Source: Phoenix dactylifera
Lineage: Eukaryota > Streptophyta > Magnoliopsida > Arecales > Arecaceae
NCBI RefSeq assembly: GCF_009389715.1
Contig: NC_052400.1
Coordinates: 20,243,674 to 20,307,673, forward strand
Direction of reading: 5' to 3'
Length of the DNA: 64,000 nt
A model generated the notes under the pieces. It was given only the letters and a program-made list of their open reading frames with translations. It searched no databases and was not told the DNA's origin. The position numbers and the translations under genes are program-made. Below, piece by piece: positions 4,545-29,267 of the stretch (its first letter is position 1; every line of letters begins with the position of its first letter).

Positions 4545-5140
4545 CACCTGGGATGACTAGGGATATCTGGGGTACCCGCAGTGCTGTTTCAGCGCCCAGA
4601 TTTGCCATTGTTTCTTGGGTGCCCCCACCCCTTGGTTATCTCAAGATGAATTTTGATGGCAGTGTGGCGAAGGATGAGAAGTCAGAAGGGGTTGGATTTG
4701 TTATCAGAGACCATTTTGGGAGTTTGATTACAACGGGTGGCCGGGGCACGACAGGTCTCACTGTTGCTGGAGCAGAGCTGTGGGCAGCCTGGGCCGGCAT
4801 ATTCTATGTGAGGTAGGTGCTCGGGGCCGAGCGGGTGCACCTTGAGGGGGACTATTTTATTGTTATAGTTTGGATCCGGGGTGCGGATAAGTACGTAGAT
4901 AGTTACCTAATTATTTGGGAGACCCACAGGTTGGCTATGGAGATGGATAAGTTTCATGCATTACACATTTTTCGAGAGGCGAACAGAGCAGCAGACTGGG
5001 TCGCCTCTTATGTTGCACAACATTCCAGGGAGTTCCGCTTCCTATTTGTATTTTTTGTTTTCTTTTGACTTGGCAGGATGTACTCACGTTAGAGCCATAT
5101 GAATTGCCGTTTTTATCCCAAAAAAAAAAAAAAAAAGAAA
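4545..5140 (+). mobile_element. 5'-truncated LINE: RNase H domain and poly-A tail
   Basis: From 4555 the + strand encodes the RNase H domain found at the end of plant LINE ORF2. It reads KMNFDGSVAKDEKSEGVGF, then AGAELWAAW, an in-frame TAG at 4816, VHLEGDYFIVIVWIRG, and finally HIFREANRAADWVASYVAQH. The first catalytic Asp (NFDGS), the Glu (AELWA), the EGD Asp and the terminal D of AADW are recognisable. The stop codon and several substitutions make it a pseudogene. A 3' UTR leads to an A-run with a short A/G tail at about 5119-5147, as expected for target-primed insertion. It lies tail-out from the neighbouring minus-strand LINE, whose 5' side it abuts. Confidence 0.82.
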
Positions 5141-5491
5141 GAAAGAAATTCATGTTATTGGGCTGGGAAAAGGATCTCTACGGATCCCACATGAGTTGAA
5201 CCAACTCGGCCCAAATTTGACCTCCCGCTGCAGATTCGTCTTCGAACAATGCCAAATTCCAGCTTCTGATGTTAAAAGGTCAGCTAAAACTAATAATTCG
5301 GAAGAATCTCAACCGCACGATTTCGACCGTGCGGTCAGTAAGGGACAAGCCCGACGATTGACGAGGAAACCCATCCTTCCGCCTCCCCTCATCACCAATC
5401 AAACGGCTAATTTGGCATGGCATTCTCGTAAATTATCTCTTGTAAAGCATACAATAGGTCATTTCACATTAAAGTATATTAAACTAATGGG

Positions 5492-5537
5492 TAGTTCTAA
5501 ATACACCCCCCCGATTGCTCAGGACACCCCCCAAAAA
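5492..5537 (+). repeat. Left terminal inverted repeat of the MULE, perfect core
   Basis: Forty-six bases beginning TAGTTCTAAATACA, then seven C, GATTGCTCAGGACA, six C and five A. They match the reverse complement of 10878-10923 without a mismatch. The following bases (A-rich, then ctcagtacacccccc near 5600) are only loosely mirrored. Confidence 0.92.
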
Positions 5538-5749
5538 CCAAAAAAAAAATACCCAAACTAACCTTTAGTGTAATTACCATATTGCCCTTGAAATTTTCTC
5601 AGTACACCCCCCTTCCTCCTCCTCCATCTCCTCCTCCGTTTCGTTTTGAAAAGGAAAAAAAAAACCACCCCTCAAACCCCCCTTAAACCCCTCGATCCAT
5701 TTACATCGTTTAGGCGATCTTTGAAGGAGATTTAAGCCCCATTCGAAGC

Positions 5750-7460
5750 ATGGACAAGCAACTAGTGATTTGGGACGAAGAATCGGCCGCAAAGGTACAT
5801 GTTCCACCTTGTTTCGAAAGTTTTTTTTTTTCACGGTTCGTGCTCCGTTCGGCACTGGATCGCCGAACAAAAGGCTTCTGTTCGGCTGCATAGTGCCGAA
5901 CAGAAGCCTTCTGTTCGGCAACGCTCTACCGAACAGAAGGCTTCTGTTCGGCTGCACAGTGCCGAACATAAGGCTTCTGTCCGGCACACTGCAGCCGAAC
6001 AGAAGGCTTCTGTTCGGCACTCTGCAGCCGAACAGAAGCCTTCTCGTGCCAAATCGCGTGCCGTGCTGAATTTTGTGCCGAACAGATCCTCTGATTCATT
6101 AATTCTTGATGATAAATTATTTTATATGTAGGGCTATGCTACAACCGAATCTAGTATAATTGGATCAGAATTTGTACTGGATTACACAAGCGAATTTACA
6201 ACTTACGAGGTATTATAATATATTGTGCAATTTTGTATTAGTTTAGCGAGCTATTTTTACAACTGTGTACTTACATAAATTGTTTAATGTATAGATCTTC
6301 AAGAGTAGAGAGGACTTGTGTAATTGGTGTCGTGAAGCTGGGAGGCGAAATGGTTTTGTTGTTGTAATCAAATCATCCGATGCAGGTACCATTTCTAAGA
6401 AACCCAGAATTACGTTAGGTTGTGAGAGGGGTGGGACGTACCGAACCACAAAAGAAAAGCGAATAAAGACTGCCTGTGGGACAAAGAAGTGTGGATGCCC
6501 TTTTGCATTAAGAGGAAAGAAATTGGATACTGCCTGTGGGACATGTCGGGACGTGCCGTGCCGAGATGTGCCGATACGGGACATGTCGGGACGTGCCGTG
6601 CCGAGATGTGCCGATACGGGATGTGCCGTGCCGAGATGTGCCGACACGGGATGTGCCGTGCCGAGATGTGCCGATACGGGACATGTTCTGCCATTGTTAC
6701 ATATTTTCTATCATTTGATATTATTTGCAGATTTTTCGTACTAGAGCCCAGTCACATACGCCCATTATCTATATTGATGCTATTCCTTCTGCCTTGAGAC
6801 CATACATCCAGCATATCAAGGATGTAAAAGCTGATGGGAATTGCGGATTTAGGGCAATAGCTGACTTACTGGGATTTGGAGAAGATGACTGGGTGCGTGT
6901 TAGGAAGGATTTATTGCAAGAGTTGCAATGTCATTCGGACCACTATCGCACATTATATGGTGTGGAAGGGACGATTGCTGAGATCACTCATGCATTATCA
7001 TATTATGATGATTGTCCACCATATAACAGATGGATGACTATGCCGGACATGGGTCATCTTATAGCATCCTGCTATAATGTTGTCCTATACCATCTCTCGT
7101 TGCAACAATGTCTGACCTTCCTACCTCTCCGTTCTGTGCCAGTACCTCTTCTATCCCGCAAAGATATCGCTATCGGATTCGTAAATGGAAATCATTTTGT
7201 TGAGGTACTACGTTCACAACACTTGCGAATATTTAATTTTGCTTATTTATAATTTTGTAGCTATTAATATTTTCTTATTTCTAATTTTGAAGGTGTTCTT
7301 GTTGCCGGGACATCCCGTTCCGCCAGTAGCGACCAACTGGCGAAAATATCATCTTCCTTGTGCTACCGGATGGGAAAATTCATATGAAGCACGGATTCAA
7401 CAGTTCAAAGAGAGCATCTCACCTAATGTTATAATTAGCGAGACAGTAGAGTTAGATTGA
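5750..7460 (+). CDS. Transposon gene: FAR1-type zinc finger plus OTU cysteine protease, transposase core deleted
   Basis: Proposed exons are 5750-5794, 6132-6209, 6295 to about 6540-6690, 6731-7204 and 7293-7460; all junctions except the end of exon 3 keep frame with GT/AG sites. Exon 1 reads MDKQLVIWDEESAAK. Exons 2-3 give a FAR1-like DNA-binding domain: FKSREDLCNWCREAGRRNGF, LGCERGG, then CGCPFALRG, the zinc-ligand pattern of the WRKY-GCM1 class. In autonomous relatives a MULE transposase and SWIM finger would follow; here only a minisatellite is present. Exons 4-5 encode an OTU protease: DGNCGFRA carries the catalytic Cys with its Asp neighbour, NGNHFVEV the catalytic His, and a C-terminal LLPGHPVPPV-NW tail is typical of transposon OTU proteins. 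The 47-bp array-containing intron 1 region is long because it holds the palindrome array. The protein may still bind TIRs and cleave ubiquitin-like chains, but cannot transpose DNA itself. Confidence 0.72.
5835..6090. repeat. Left array of 25-bp palindromes (period ~33 bp)
   Basis: About six to seven units, each made of arm GCCGAACAGAAG, one central base, and arm CTTCTGTTCGGC, which is the exact reverse complement of the first arm. Units are joined by 8-9-bp spacers such as tgcatagt, aacgctcta and tgcacagt. Because each unit is its own reverse complement and the period is near 33, several frames on both strands stay open and give repetitive peptides, which I do not regard as proteins. The array falls inside the first intron of the FAR1-OTU gene and is mirrored at the right end. 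Confidence 0.93.
6538..6677. repeat. Minisatellite (40/40/30/30 bp) at the transposase deletion site
   Basis: Four head-to-tail units, two of 40 bp and two of 30 bp, share the core gtgccgtgccgagatgtgcc and end ccgatac or ccgacac. It starts at the second copy of a direct repeat (actgcctgtgggaca at about 6469 and 6529) and stops just before the OTU exon. It occupies the position where a MULE transposase domain would be expected. Confidence 0.9.
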
Positions 7461-7487
7461 TTATTTATATATGTACAATTTTTGAAA
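7441..7487 (+). repeat. Direct repeat A1 flanking the captured-gene insert
   Basis: A 47-bp segment from agacagtagagttagattga to tacaatttttgaaa recurs at 7963-8009 with one substitution, a 522-bp offset. It contains the stop of the OTU gene. The pair brackets the DRM/AGO4 fragments, as expected for template switching or an unequal repair event during capture. Confidence 0.9.
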
Positions 7488-7493
7488 GTTGTA

Positions 7494-7706
7494 AATTTTT
7501 TGGGGCTCTTAGAGTCATGTACTGTGAAACTCCATCATCAGCTGGGAATACATATGACGACTGTTGTTTCCGTTGAGATTTCAGATGTAAACAGAAACAT
7601 ACTTAAGAGCTGGTGGGAGCAAACAAATCAAACAGGGGAACTAATAGACCTTTCTGATGTACAAGAACTTAACGGTGACAAGCTTGAGCAGATGATTAAC
7701 ACATTT
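7494..7706 (+). pseudogene. Captured fragment of a DRM2-type DNA methyltransferase
   Basis: The + strand reads KLHHQLGIHMTTVVSVEISD, then VNRNILKSWWEQTNQTGELI, DLSDVQELNGDKLEQMINTF. From family knowledge this is the stretch of the rearranged DRM methyltransferase domain lying between the first SAM-binding motif and the GG-SPCNN catalytic loop; the VVSVE-SEVNRNIL and WW-QTNQTG strings are diagnostic. The match ends just before the loop, so the catalytic Cys is absent. The preceding FLGLLESCT may be a degraded version of the SAM-binding motif. It lies 34 bp after the OTU stop codon in the same orientation. I see no intron, and the fragment has no start of its own. An alignment to monocot DRM2 would settle it. 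Confidence 0.78.
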
Positions 7707-7736
7707 GTTGGAAAAGAGGGCTCTGTGATGTTCTTG

Positions 7737-7939
7737 GTTAAGAGGTTAATCGGCTGCCCTCTCCTTGCAAGGCCAGGTCTTGCCACTGGCACCCTCTTAG
7801 GCTTTGCTGCCTTTTTTGGAGGGGAACTTTGTCCAGGGTCAGCTTTGATTGGAACAACATTTGGAGGTACCTCAGGGGGAGGTGGAGGCAGAACATCAGT
7901 CGTATCAGATTCAGGGTCAAACCCCCCACGGGACTCCAT
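7737..7939 (-). pseudogene. Captured first-exon fragment of an AGO4-type Argonaute
   Basis: On the minus strand an ATG at 7939 opens MESRGGFDPESDTTDVLPPP, followed by PPEVPPNVVPIKADPG, KPKRVPVARPGLARRGQPI and NLLT. The order Pro-run, PPNVVPIKA, basic linker, ARPG, (R/K)GQ-I-LLT is the N-terminus of the AGO4/AGO6/AGO16 clade, where NHFKV would follow. The homology stops at NLLT, where the sequence joins the DRM fragment in opposite orientation. The ATG, frame and codons are intact over 68 residues. The orientation is sense for the PMD gene upstream on this strand. PAZ and PIWI domains are absent, so no Argonaute is made. Confidence 0.8.
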
Positions 7940-7962
7940 CTCCTTAGGGGGAGGTGGAGGCA

Positions 7963-8020
7963 AGACAGTAGAGTTAGATTGATTGTTTATATATGTACAA
8001 TTTTTGAAACTCCATCATCA
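7963..8020 (+). repeat. Direct repeat A2 plus 15-bp DRM-edge microhomology
   Basis: This is the second copy of the 47-bp repeat A1. It continues with gaaactccatcatca, which also occurs at 7526-7540 at the edge of the DRM-like fragment. The arrangement suggests the captured DNA was joined at this shared 15-mer. Confidence 0.88.
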
Positions 8021-8104
8021 ATATAAATCAAAAAATATCTGTCTTCGCATTGTTAGATTGATTGTTATGTGCACTGTTATATTTATGTAAAATAGAACGG
8101 GCCA

Positions 8105-8181
8105 GGCTTTACAAAGATTACACGTAAATGTACCAAAAATATATATTTTTCATTAATATCAAAGGCTTTACAAAGATTACA
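8105..8181. repeat. Short direct repeat in the inter-gene spacer of the MULE
   Basis: The string ggctttacaaagattac occurs near 8106 and again near 8164, separated by about 58 bp, and ctccatcatcaat follows the second copy, echoing the same string at 8010. This patchwork adds to the evidence for template switching near the captured fragments. Confidence 0.75.
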
Positions 8182-8193
8182 AAGGCTCCATCA

Positions 8194-10108
8194 TCAATCC
8201 CTATGACGCCATCGTCGACGCGTGTACTGCTGTACGTCCGAATGAGAGGGTCCTGGATCCAAATGAGAGGGTGCTGTACTCGGGCCAGGCTCATCACCCA
8301 GAAGTACCTGATGCATCTGAGAAATAGCATCATATAGGTGCCCGGCACCTAGTGACGTAGCCTCTGAGGGACCCATCCGTACAATGTCGGTACTGATACC
8401 GAGTGCAGCTGCATTACGCCGCCGGTGCATGTCAGCATCATCATGACCTCCCCTAGCTCCAGAATGAGTACTCGAGCGCAGATGAGGAGGCTGAACTGCA
8501 ACGTGCGTGATACGGAGATACCACTCCATGTATCCCGGTACGCTGTCTGATGGCCGGGTAACTGGGTGGCTCCTGCTCGCCTGGCTCAGCACGTGGTCCT
8601 CCCACCGCTCCCAAAGCTGATCCATATAGGAGTAATGTATCCGGTACGAGCCTGCTGTGGAACCTCTGTTGGCTCGCGTAGGGGCTAGTGGCGCTCGAGG
8701 GATGGTCTGAATACGACCAAACTGTCTAAGAACCCTTTCTGGATGATAGGGTTCTACGATATCAAGGCACTTGATGGAGCCACTAAAAAATGCGACGGGT
8801 ATATATGGGCGATCTCCCCGAAGCCGATGATGGGGATCCCAAATAACCTGTAAAACAAAAGGTCCATTTCAGTTTTATACTATATCGCATATTAAATGTA
8901 CTGACAAACACAAGCAAATGGTAATATGATACGTACCTCATCGATGCTCAAAAGGTCCAATGACTCACGTAGAACCACTAAATGGTCCATCGTGGTACGG
9001 GATGGAGTACCGGGCATCCAGCGGTGCACGCGGGGACTGGCATCAGTATACTCGAGCGACGGGTGAGGACTGAGTGCTGGAAAATGCTCATAAATCCATG
9101 CCTGCAGAAGCGTCATATAACCACTGATCTGTCTCACTGATGACCTCGACGCAATCCCCAACTGCCGATACAAATATGCTAAGGCAGTTGTACCCCAGGC
9201 ATATGTGCTCACCCTATCCAGATCCCGCAGTAAACACAGATACGCTATAGGCACCCTGGTCCCACTCTTATCAGCAAAGAGTGTGCAGCCTAACAAAAAT
9301 AACAAATAGGCTCGTGCTGCACACTCTATCCTCTGCTGCCTGTCTCTATCAGATACAGAGTGAAACTGAGTCCTCAGCCACTCCATCCTCACAGACTGAC
9401 CGCGCGATGACAGTACCTCCTGACGCGCGTCTCCAGCTGACACCCCCAACAACTCCACAAGTAGCTCCTCAGCATCCCGATCACTCATCCTCTCAGGAGA
9501 AACTGATACTGAGGAACCTGCGACAGGAATCCCTAAAATGGCGGATACATCATCCAACGTGATAGTGATCTCGCCAAATGGTATATGGAAGGTGTTCGTC
9601 TCGGGCTGCCATCTCTCTACGAAGCCCGAAATCAGAATCTTATCGATGAATCGATAAGAGCACTGTACTAACTCTACGAGGCCCGACTGCCTCAATAGTG
9701 CTCTGAACCTGGTATTTGGTTGGTTTGAAGACCACCACTTCCATTCACCAACCTTGGCAGTATGGTTCATGCACTTTAGTGGAGCTCGTTCCTGTAATAT
9801 AAATGTATAATTACTACTACTTTATAAAACATCAATAAACAAAATATAATGCTATAACAAATAAACAATACCTGTTGCCTCCAGATGGAAGCTGCTATAT
9901 GCGTCCTGAAACTGATCAGGACGGACTCATCCTCTGGACCTCCTGGACATGGTCCAACGGACTCATCGTCTTCGCCCCTAGCGGGCATATCATCATGCTC
10001 TGACTCAGGAGAGTCCGATGGCATATGAGCAGGCTCGGGAGAAGCAATCCTAGCACGACGTCTCCTAGCTGACGCCGTAGGTCTAACTCCGGCGGGACGG
10101 GGATCCAT
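8194..10108 (-). CDS. Plant mobile domain (PMD) protein carried by the MULE, 581 aa, intact
   Basis: Three exons on the minus strand, 10108-9872, 9791-8937 and 8847-8194, join in phase 0 with GT/AG sites and give 581 residues without a stop. Exon 1 is a disordered leader (MDPRPAGVRPTASARRRRAR, then an acidic stretch). Exon 2 starts ERAPLKCMNHTAKVGEWKWW and contains LVELVQCSYRFIDKILISGF, VERWQPETNTFHIPFGEITI and TLDDVSAILGIPV, the signature of the plant aminotransferase-like/PMD family also found in MAIN and MAIL1. YLLFLLGCTLFADKSGTRVP and a second helical half follow. Exon 3 has the family's terminal HPERVLRQFGRIQTIP block and a low-complexity tail. MAIN/MAIL1 act in genome stability and silencing of repeats; whether a transposon-encoded PMD antagonises or imitates them is unknown. 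It converges on the FAR1-OTU gene, like mudrB on mudrA. Intactness suggests recent or selected function. Confidence 0.85.
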
Positions 10109-10169
10109 GTCTGAAAATATAGAAATTCAATGTTAGGCTATATCAAAGAAAATAATTCAATTGCATACA

Positions 10170-10440
10170 TAAATGTTCGGCACAAAATTCAGCACGGCAC
10201 GCACCAGAACCCTTCTGTTCGGCTGCACAGTGCCGAACAGAAGGCTTCTGTTCGGCTTCACAGAGCCGGACAGAACCATTCTGTTCGGCACCGTGCAGCC
10301 GAACAGAAGGCTTCTGTTCGGCACCGTGCAGCCGAACAGAAGGCTTCTGTTCGGTTGAGTGTTGCCGAACAGAGGGCTTCTGTTCGGCACTGTTCAGCCG
10401 AACAGAACCCTTCTGTTCGGCGATCCAGTGCCGAACGGAG
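10170..10440. repeat. Right array of 25-bp palindromes (period ~33 bp)
   Basis: About seven to eight units with the same arms (GCCGAACAGAAG and CTTCTGTTCGGC) as the left array and spacers such as tgcacagt and accgtgca. Array borders are mirrored: gcgtgccgtgctgaatttt (about 6055) matches the complement of 10175-10200, and gctccgttcggcactggat (about 5840) matches the complement near 10425. The arrays are therefore part of the inverted ends. Unit number differs between sides, so they evolve independently by slippage. Confidence 0.93.
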
Positions 10441-10538
10441 CACTGGAGGCGGGGGGGCGGGGAGCTACCTCGACGTGGTCGTGGAGGCGCCGGCGAGGTG
10501 CTCGTTGCTCGGGAGATGGCTGGGGAGGTGGTTCCGGG

Positions 10539-10597
10539 AGAATGCCGGCGACGAGAGGGAGAAGGGGAGAATGCCGGCGACGAGAGGGAGAAGGGGG
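10539..10597. repeat. Tandem duplication of a 30-bp unit in the right MULE arm
   Basis: gagaatgccggcgacgagag with ggagaagggg is present twice in succession. It lies in a strongly G-rich, asymmetric stretch (10440-10850) with no matching GC-rich block in the left arm. Confidence 0.85.
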
Positions 10598-10739
10598 AAC
10601 GGGGGGGTTTTGGGCGAGGGAGAAGGGGGAGACGGAGGGGGTTTGGCCGCCGGCGAGGTGCTTGAGGTTCTTGAGGCGAAGTTTTTTGGGGGGAAGGGAG
10701 AAGCCGGCTGGAGTGGAGTTTTGGAGGGGAAGAGCGGGG

Positions 10740-10877
10740 TTGGGGGGGGTTTGGGGGGTGTAGAGAGCAATTTAGGTGAGGGGGTGGGGAGGGTGAAGGG
10801 TAATTTAGGATTTTTCAATTTTTTAGGGGTGTCCTTAGCAAATGGGGGGGTGTAGAGAGTATTTAATTTTTTTTTAA
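10740..10877. repeat. Subterminal TIR-like repeats inside the right end
   Basis: Besides the true end, shorter related motifs occur just inside: ggggtgtccttagcaaatgg followed by ggggggtgtagagagtattt (about 10826-10863), and ggggggtgtagagagcaattt near 10752. Both resemble the terminal order ggggtgtcctgagcaatcgg, ggggggtgtatttagaac. They could be extra transposase binding sites or remains of nested end duplications. Confidence 0.7.
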
Positions 10878-10923
10878 TTTTTGGGGGGTGTCCTGAGCAA
10901 TCGGGGGGGTGTATTTAGAACTA
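10878..10923 (-). repeat. Right terminal inverted repeat of the MULE, perfect core
   Basis: Reverse complement of 5492-5537 over all 46 bases, ending gtgtatttagaacta. The following genomic DNA (taagttcgaggcagg) leads within about 100 bp into the RGGA promoter and leader. Confidence 0.92.
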
Positions 10924-11023
10924 TAAGTTCGAGGCAGGTGCCTGCCCGATATTAGGCCGTCGGTATCGGCTAGGGTTCTTCACTTCTTCTCGTGCTCTCG
11001 CACGCTCCTGCCCGCCGCCCCAA

Positions 11024-28706: not shown

Positions 28707-29267
28707 ATGGAGCCTCACAACATCACTCCTCCACAAGGGCTGACACGGGAGGAGTTTGCCGGGCTGGAGGAGGTCATCCGGGCGCACCACTCGTTCCCTC
28801 GGGCTCCCGGGACGTGCACGTCTCTCATCACGCAGCGCATCGATGCACCGCTCCGGGCGGTGTGGCCCATCGTCCGGAGATTCGACCGCCCGCAGCGGTA
28901 CAAGCACTTCATCAAGAGCTGCAACCTCACCTCGGGGGATGGTGGCGTGGGGAGCGTACGGGAAGTGACTGTGATCTCCGGCCTCCCTGCATCGACGAGC
29001 ACCGAGAGGCTGGAGATTTTGGACGATGAGCGGCATATACTTAGCTTCAGCGTCATGGGCGGAGAGCACCGCCTCAAGAACTACCGCTCGGTCACGTCGG
29101 TGACCGAGTTCATAAGGGACGACGGGAAGCCATATACGATCGTTCTGGAGTCGTACGTCGTCGACATACCGGAGGGAAACACGGAGGAGGATACCAAGAT
29201 GTTTGTCGACACTGTCGTGAGGCTCAACTTGCAGAAGCTTTCAGCGGTGGCGATGGCTTCCGTGTAA
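28707..29267 (+). CDS. PYL2: PYL2-like abscisic acid receptor (PYR/PYL/RCAR), 186 aa, intronless
   Basis: START-fold soluble receptor that binds ABA in the cytosol and nucleus and then inhibits clade A PP2C phosphatases. The ATG at 28707 lies in a good context (gcccATGG) and the frame is open for 186 codons, the family size. The gate loop is SGLPA (91-95) and the latch HRL (121-123). Lys66 in RYKHFIK is the ABA carboxylate contact. Glu100, Tyr126 and Asn174 match the water-network residues of PYR1/PYL1. The strings CTSLITQRIDAP, GDGGVGSVREVTVISGLPA and DIPEGNTEEDTKMFVDTVV point to the PYL1-3 group, closest to PYL2, which are homodimeric without ABA. All key residues are present, so it should be functional. 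The GC-rich coding sequence contrasts with its AT-rich surroundings, normal for monocot single-exon genes. Confidence 0.95.
   Translation: MEPHNITPPQGLTREEFAGLEEVIRAHHSFPRAPGTCTSLITQRIDAPLRAVWPIVRRFDRPQRYKHFIKSCNLTSGDGGVGSVREVTVISGLPASTSTERLEILDDERHILSFSVMGGEHRLKNYRSVTSVTEFIRDDGKPYTIVLESYVVDIPEGNTEEDTKMFVDTVVRLNLQKLSAVAMASV

Follow-up and report, generated by a model that had tools for sequence, protein, structure and literature searches.

How transposons escape RNA-directed DNA methylation (RdDM) is a long-standing question for which there are few worked examples. DRM2 is the de novo methyltransferase of this pathway and AGO4 is its siRNA-guided partner. An earlier note on a 64,000-nt stretch of the Phoenix dactylifera genome (contig C9 of the 773-Mb assembly that was searched here; hereafter the window) had described fragments of both genes inside one transposon, and proposed that they act against the silencing of the element. 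How did two pieces of the same pathway come to lie side by side in a transposon, and do they serve it? The observation in that note was confirmed and is made much stronger by the wider genome. Its interpretation as a whole is partly supported.

The carrier element

The transposon spans positions 5489-10923 of the window (Table 1) and is a MULE, as the earlier note had stated: a MULE-type transposase occurs in the family, the ends are terminal inverted repeats (TIRs), and copies of the family show target site duplications. The start of the left TIR, GGGTAGTTC, was deduced from related copies with target duplications. Nine of 10 left-end pieces of chimera copies (those with both gene pieces) contained the left TIR, and all nine shared 9-12 nt with the right flank; these nine target duplications all differed from one another. 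The trinucleotide CCC follows the right TIR in most fetched copies and is missing from the window copy. Comparison of the flanks of 5489 and 10923 gave no clear 9-bp target duplication for the window copy, and an altered right end with a rearranged right border is suggested for it. No further copies of the element were detected in the window.

The transposase gene of the window copy lacks the transposase core that is present in the empty relatives L075 and L076, two copies without the insert in which this gene is longer; the alignment breaks at 6533/6538. In L076, the MULE transposase domain (PF10551, E 5.6e-27) and FAR1 (E 3.2e-6) were identified by Pfam. The OTU-like segment matched the Pfam family Peptidase_C65 at E 0.021, below the cut-off, and we take it to be OTU-like from its DGNCGFRA motif together with this weak match. 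The aligned part of 6719-7249 was stop-free in 21 of 21 copies. A tandem repeat, GTGCCGTGCCGAGATGTGCCGATACGGGA, lies at 6537-6690 between the transposase remnant and the OTU-like segment; the alignment suggests that it probably has other lengths in L031 and L075. The second gene, encoding a plant mobile domain (PMD), matched PF10536 at 8895-9821 (E 4.2e-57) and 8197-8868 (E 2.1e-10). The DRM2/AGO4 insert is located between the 3' ends of these two convergent element genes.

Table 1. Features of the transposon and of its insert, in window coordinates
Feature	Position	Strand	Details
Left terminal inverted repeat, GGGTAGTTCTAAATACACC...	5489..5551	+	60-nt arms 5492-5551 / 10864-10923, 95% complementary
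Left subterminal 33-bp repeats, GCCGAACAGAAG units	5840..6044	.	88% complementary to 10239-10443
FAR1-like N-terminus remnant of transposase gene	6295..6533	+	AFT E 0.0033, below cut-off
OTU-like C-terminal part of transposase gene	6719..7460	+	open 6719-7249 and up to stop 7458-7460
Left copy of element stretch duplicated around captured DNA	7438..7540	+	50-nt direct repeat 7438-7487 / 7960-8009, 96%
Captured host DRM2 exon piece	7536..7707	+ (sense)	173/176 nt identical to host L029 over 7536-7711
Stretch found past the stop codon of DRM2 in L030/L031	7704..7738	+	joined to exon through internal deletion
Captured host AGO4 exon piece with start codon	7734..7944	-	210/211 nt identical to host gene L050
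Second AGO4 snippet, about 21 nt	7942..7962	-	repeat of 7870-7890 region, 88%
Right copy of duplicated element stretch	7960..8021	+	about 42 nt lost through TGAAA repeat; fuller in L048
Plant mobile domain (PMD) gene, ends approximate	8194..10126	-	convergent with transposase/OTU gene
Right subterminal repeats	10239..10443	.	88% complementary to 5840-6044
Right terminal inverted repeat	10864..10923	-	60-nt arm, 95% complementary to left arm

The DRM2 and AGO4 pieces

Both gene assignments of the earlier note were borne out, as was the opposite orientation of the pieces. The DRM2 piece matches the last exon of a gene in the same genome (L029, C1:6487156) and is identical at 174 of 176 nt (7536-7711) to the family copies L030 and L031. 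In the PDB, the plus-strand frame 7461-7979, which contains it, matched DRM methyltransferases of plants: tobacco DRM at E 9.3e-20 and Arabidopsis DRM2 at E 1.6e-16. The host gene L029 scores as a C-5 DNA methylase (PF00145, E 9.9e-16), and its frame is open through the PCNN motif, which we take to be catalytic, to the stop codon. The captured piece includes the VVSVE and DVQ region and ends before PCNN.

The coordinates first given (7494-7706 for DRM2, 7737-7939 for AGO4) needed correction: the two pieces are present, 7494-7535 is element sequence, the DRM2 exon reaches about 7707 and the AGO4 match runs to 7944. The short stretch between the two pieces is missing from the host copy L029.

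The AGO4 piece has its ATG at 7939-7937, lies antisense to the transposase/OTU gene and spans roughly the first 68 codons, start codon included, of its parent L050 (C1:27568700-27569700). The paralogue L049 is identical to it at 178 of 211 nt. L050 was presumed to belong to the AGO4 clade from its identity to the Arabidopsis AGO4 N-terminus (50% and 56% over two exons). A PDB search with the AGO4 piece gave no relevant match, unrelated chains alone appearing at E 0.62 and 1.2, and the names DRM2 and AGO4 rest on the PDB matches of DRM and on query sequences. A viral collection searched for relatives of the DRM2 and AGO4 pieces contained none. The snippet that follows the AGO4 piece, a version of which with CCTCAGGGGG is found in L048, is probably a template-switch scar.

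Distribution of the chimera and of empty copies

The earlier note had asked for the same chimera in other copies of the family, and it was found. A 601-nt query (7400-8000) gave 183 candidates, 40 of which were scored; 39 of these 40 places contained the full interval at 99-100% identity and the remaining one was partial. There were also seven short extra matches among the 40 scored places. At seven places, on C118, C13, C29, C236, C18 (two) and C5, the extra match, of query positions 39-141, adjoins the main one; these places keep a longer second flank copy and may represent an earlier offshoot of the window type.

With the DRM2 query, 78 of 79 scored candidates matched: two host genes, two rows that were second pieces of a place already in the count, and 74 remaining places. 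The second host gene (50%) was labelled DRM3-like in our analysis. Among the matches listed, the 74 DRM2-bearing places outside host genes divided into 43 window-like, 19 long and 12 other. The AGO4 query gave 52 matches among 73 scored, seven rows of which fell in other genes, and 41 of the 45 further AGO4-bearing places were within 2.5 kb of a DRM2 piece (among the matches listed). Seven window-like DRM2 places had no AGO4 row in the match list. Since the regions at C7:10653557, C18:7945609, C18:9808125 and C22:2638379 have no AGO4 row yet carry the full 601 nt, the match lists are limited by their threshold.

A 45-mer located just before the insert occurred 162 times at up to three mismatches, with zero occurrences in the reversed control. 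Sixty of the 100 exact 45-mer places listed were not near a listed DRM2 or AGO4 piece. In all 20 of these 60 that were fetched the insert was absent, hence no other gene occupied the site. The sequence was continuous through the site in 19 of these empty copies, and L061 was without a short stretch there. The L061 deletion lies between the same TGAAA repeats as that in the right flank copy of the window type, and this deletion seems to recur.

Sequence of the transposase region was present in 19 of 20 fetched chimera copies and absent from L025 (presence was scored, intactness of the frame aside). The copy number was judged not to stem from a redundant assembly: of 18 right flanks that could be read, only those of L010 and L012 shared a stretch (75 nt, 97%). 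As the chimera copies have target duplications of their own and right flanks that, this pair apart, are not shared, they represent separate insertions. In L012, a related element with the TIR GGTTCTATATACACCC (about 4729 and 5776-5818) directly adjoins the end of the chimera copy.

As a control gene, an intact frame at 28713-29264 (+) of the window, presumably encoding a PYR/PYL-like ABA receptor, had 18 matches in the genome, one of them to itself (100%) and the remaining 17 at 40-66%. It was thus without a near-identical dispersed set, and one gene makes a weak control. Another frame of the window, at about 4630-5070 (+), resembles what we take to be the RNase H tail of a plant LINE.

Stepwise capture at one site

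Within this one family there is a series of empty copies, copies with DRM2 only, copies with DRM2 and AGO4, and copies with a trimmed DRM2. L031-L047 displayed a longer DRM2 piece, from the exon to the stop codon and beyond, and the AGO4 piece was found in none of these 17 copies within the ~3.3 kb fetched. In L031, a 63-nt duplication of element sequence flanks the DRM2 piece. L048 has both the long DRM2 piece and AGO4, the latter identical to the window at 211 of 211 nt, and in it the flanking element stretch occurs a second time over 103 nt (99/103). In the window type, a deletion joins DRM2 at about 7707 to the stretch past the stop codon, and the second flank copy has lost ~42 nt. L052, a further derivative, also has both genes.

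The presence of DRM2 without AGO4 in L031-L047 and of both in L048 indicates that DRM2 came first, and rules out a single insertion bringing both pieces. The earlier note had thought a joint acquisition by chance unlikely; the two gene pieces are there, and they arrived in two sequential events and not in one. We regard it as close to certain that the element has the structure given in Table 1 and captured, stepwise and at one site, first a piece from the 3' end of DRM2 and later an exon piece of AGO4.

Overlaps of 3-5 nt were observed at four of the five joints: CATCA (7536-7540) between element and DRM2, TTTG between the exon and the downstream stretch, TTGGT between the downstream stretch and AGO4, and CCT, in L048, between AGO4 and the snippet. 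The fifth joint, from the snippet to the element, showed none. Such overlaps, together with the flanking duplications, are marks of template switching, and we infer that the captures originated by template switching during the repair of DNA gaps. Template switching has been proposed for gene-carrying TIR elements and is described for Pack-TIR elements in animals (PMC8277862).

L030 (C1:10480585 onwards, extended by L073) is a 3-kb Pack-MULE of the family with no transposase and with a perfect 9-bp target duplication, AAGATGAAT, on both sides. It contains the 3' end of DRM2 with ~1.3 kb of sequence downstream of the stop codon, and matches host DNA up to ~1.7 kb past the DRM2 stop codon. Because L030 holds sequence from beyond the stop codon, DRM2 was most likely captured as DNA rather than as cDNA. 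A 233-nt stretch after the stop codon is common to L030 (oriented ~1913-2145) and L031 and absent from the host L029; therefore, the DRM2 piece may have passed through a Pack-MULE like L030. An intron was rejected as the identity of this stretch, the reading frame of L029 ending before it.

Divergence and traces of methylation

Over the shared flanks, mean pairwise divergence was 0.57% in the window type (21 copies), 1.05% among other DRM2-bearing copies (17) and 2.06% among empty copies (20), with a bias in favour of a low value for the window type, whose copies were picked by identity to 7400-8000. The larger part of the sequence compared (8021-8300) falls outside that query. The 17 other DRM2-bearing copies include L048 and L052, and two of 19 rows, those of L037 and L039, were left out because of insufficient length. 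On these values the chimera subfamily is apparently young and the least diverged of the three groups.

Segregating columns numbered 2/176 in DRM2, 3/211 in AGO4, 11/501 in the OTU-like segment, and 27/927 and 19/672 in PMD; the low variation of the insert is not free of bias, since identity to the interval decided which copies were taken, and for this reason selection on the insert is not claimed from the segregating sites.

Transitions at CpG sites and at other C/G positions were 9/1216 and 10/4637 in the chimera (21 copies), 5/959 and 12/3535 in other DRM2-bearing copies (16/18 copies), and 12/1186 and 23/4150 in empty copies (20 copies). Over 8022-10120 of the chimera, they were 24/3526 and 40/14846 (18 copies). 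The excess at CpG suggests that the chimera copies are still CG-methylated, as it seems. CG methylation is not a mark specific to RdDM, so this decay weighs little against counter-silencing.

Possible function of the insert

The interval 7490-7962 yields 453 21-mers; exact matches to host DRM2 number 110 and to the AGO4 parent 170, compared with two and zero for two other AGO genes. Exact identity to both host genes over 21-24 nt makes an action of small RNAs in trans possible. The two convergent element transcripts, if long enough, would cross both pieces, so that plus-strand transcripts would carry AGO4 antisense and minus-strand transcripts DRM2 antisense. Read-through or RDR copying could then yield dsRNA across the insert, and 21-24-nt products of it would match host DRM2 and AGO4 exactly. 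Many copies might jointly lower both RdDM proteins, by cleavage of the mRNAs or by methylation of the parent exons, and the silencing of the element might be eased. The pieces would act as RNA and not as protein; RNA action, if there is any, is favoured by the position of the frames behind the stop codons of other genes and by the TAG within the DRM2 match of L032-L047. A hairpin or miRNA source of the miR820 type was rejected, as 7488-7963 has no stable hairpin on the plus strand (z -0.07) and 5400-11000 no Rfam match.

Judged from sequence, a selected counter-silencing function of the DRM2 and AGO4 pieces has, in our estimate, slightly under even odds. The fuller reading, that the lineage built a two-gene RNA cassette piecewise against the de novo methylation of the host and was helped by it in its recent spread to dozens of loci, is more tentative, with a probability of a little under 0.4. 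Transposon siRNAs usually silence the transposon itself, which counts against counter-silencing, as does the fact that empty copies of the family also remain numerous.

The pieces might instead be passenger DNA, copied by template-switching gap repair, DRM2 and later AGO4, into an untranslated and tolerant site, without consequence, in a lineage that multiplied through its transposase genes. This has somewhat less than an even chance, and we rate it about level with counter-silencing, both being plausible. The joint overlaps, flanking duplications and snippet repeat are repair scars that need no selection, and L030 shows that another member of the family also acquired DRM2 DNA. The decay at CpG suggests no escape from CG methylation, and empty copies persist. 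However, two successive captures in one lineage hit the same pathway, which we take to comprise ~40 genes among some 35,000, no other insert occupied the site in the 20 other copies sampled, and the chimera subfamily is the least diverged. The chance that a second capture would hit the RdDM pathway is estimated at about 0.1%; given how many chimeric captures plant genomes hold in all, chance is still a plausible explanation. Even as passengers, the pieces provide an unusually clear record of the stepwise capture of host DNA by a MULE.

Decoy proteins, in which a translated ATG-led AGO4 N-terminal piece or the DRM2 piece would interfere with host proteins, are improbable. All 21 copies have a stop-free 66-aa AGO4 frame and 20 of the 21 an open frame containing DRM2, but the copies are too similar for an open frame to carry much weight, and the stop codons of the element genes lie upstream of both frames. 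The DRM2 piece is also without the PCNN motif, and the TAG interrupts it in 16 other listed DRM2-bearing copies (L032-L047), indicating that no protein is being kept there. Least probable of all is a benefit to the host, by which siRNA from the many copies would adjust DRM2 and AGO4 in a dosage-dependent way, braking over-methylation, and would be retained by the host rather than by the element: it would draw on the same sequence facts as counter-silencing, namely exact 21-mer identity, but the spread to separate target sites is explained by the activity of the element itself, and no single domesticated locus came to notice.

Since one genome holds both the natural series and the host genes, trans-silencing of the parents and its effect on spread can be tested directly.

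Relation to known elements

The open-access literature searched contained no description of an element that carries DRM2 together with AGO4 pieces. The nearest precedent, by analogy, is miR820 in rice CACTA elements, which possibly originated from OsDRM2 and lowers OsDRM2 through a small RNA (PMC3459959). In both cases a transposon carries sequence that is, or in miR820 may be, derived from DRM2. The rice carriers belong to the CACTA superfamily, whereas the present element is a MULE without a hairpin or foldback precursor and has AGO4 as a second RdDM gene. The presumed miR820 target site was absent from the window at up to three mismatches.

VANDAL elements of Arabidopsis are MULE-type and, like the element proposed here, are DNA transposons that counter epigenetic silencing. 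Their VANC anti-silencing proteins oppose it, with RdDM as an opponent (PMC10398659). VANC is encoded by the element and binds the element, whereas the candidate agent here would be RNA homologous to host genes.

The name Pack-MULE, used in the earlier note, fits in part. As in Pack-MULEs of rice and other plants, pieces of host genes lie between MULE TIRs, often in many copies. In contrast, 19 of the 20 chimera copies retain transposase-region sequence, and the pieces lie between the two genes of the element instead of replacing them; transposase is lacking in the window copy, L025 and L030. OTU-like and PMD cargo is common in MULEs, and the present element shares with such MULEs the FAR1/MULE transposase, the OTU-like tail and the PMD gene, to which the DRM2/AGO4 insert is an addition.
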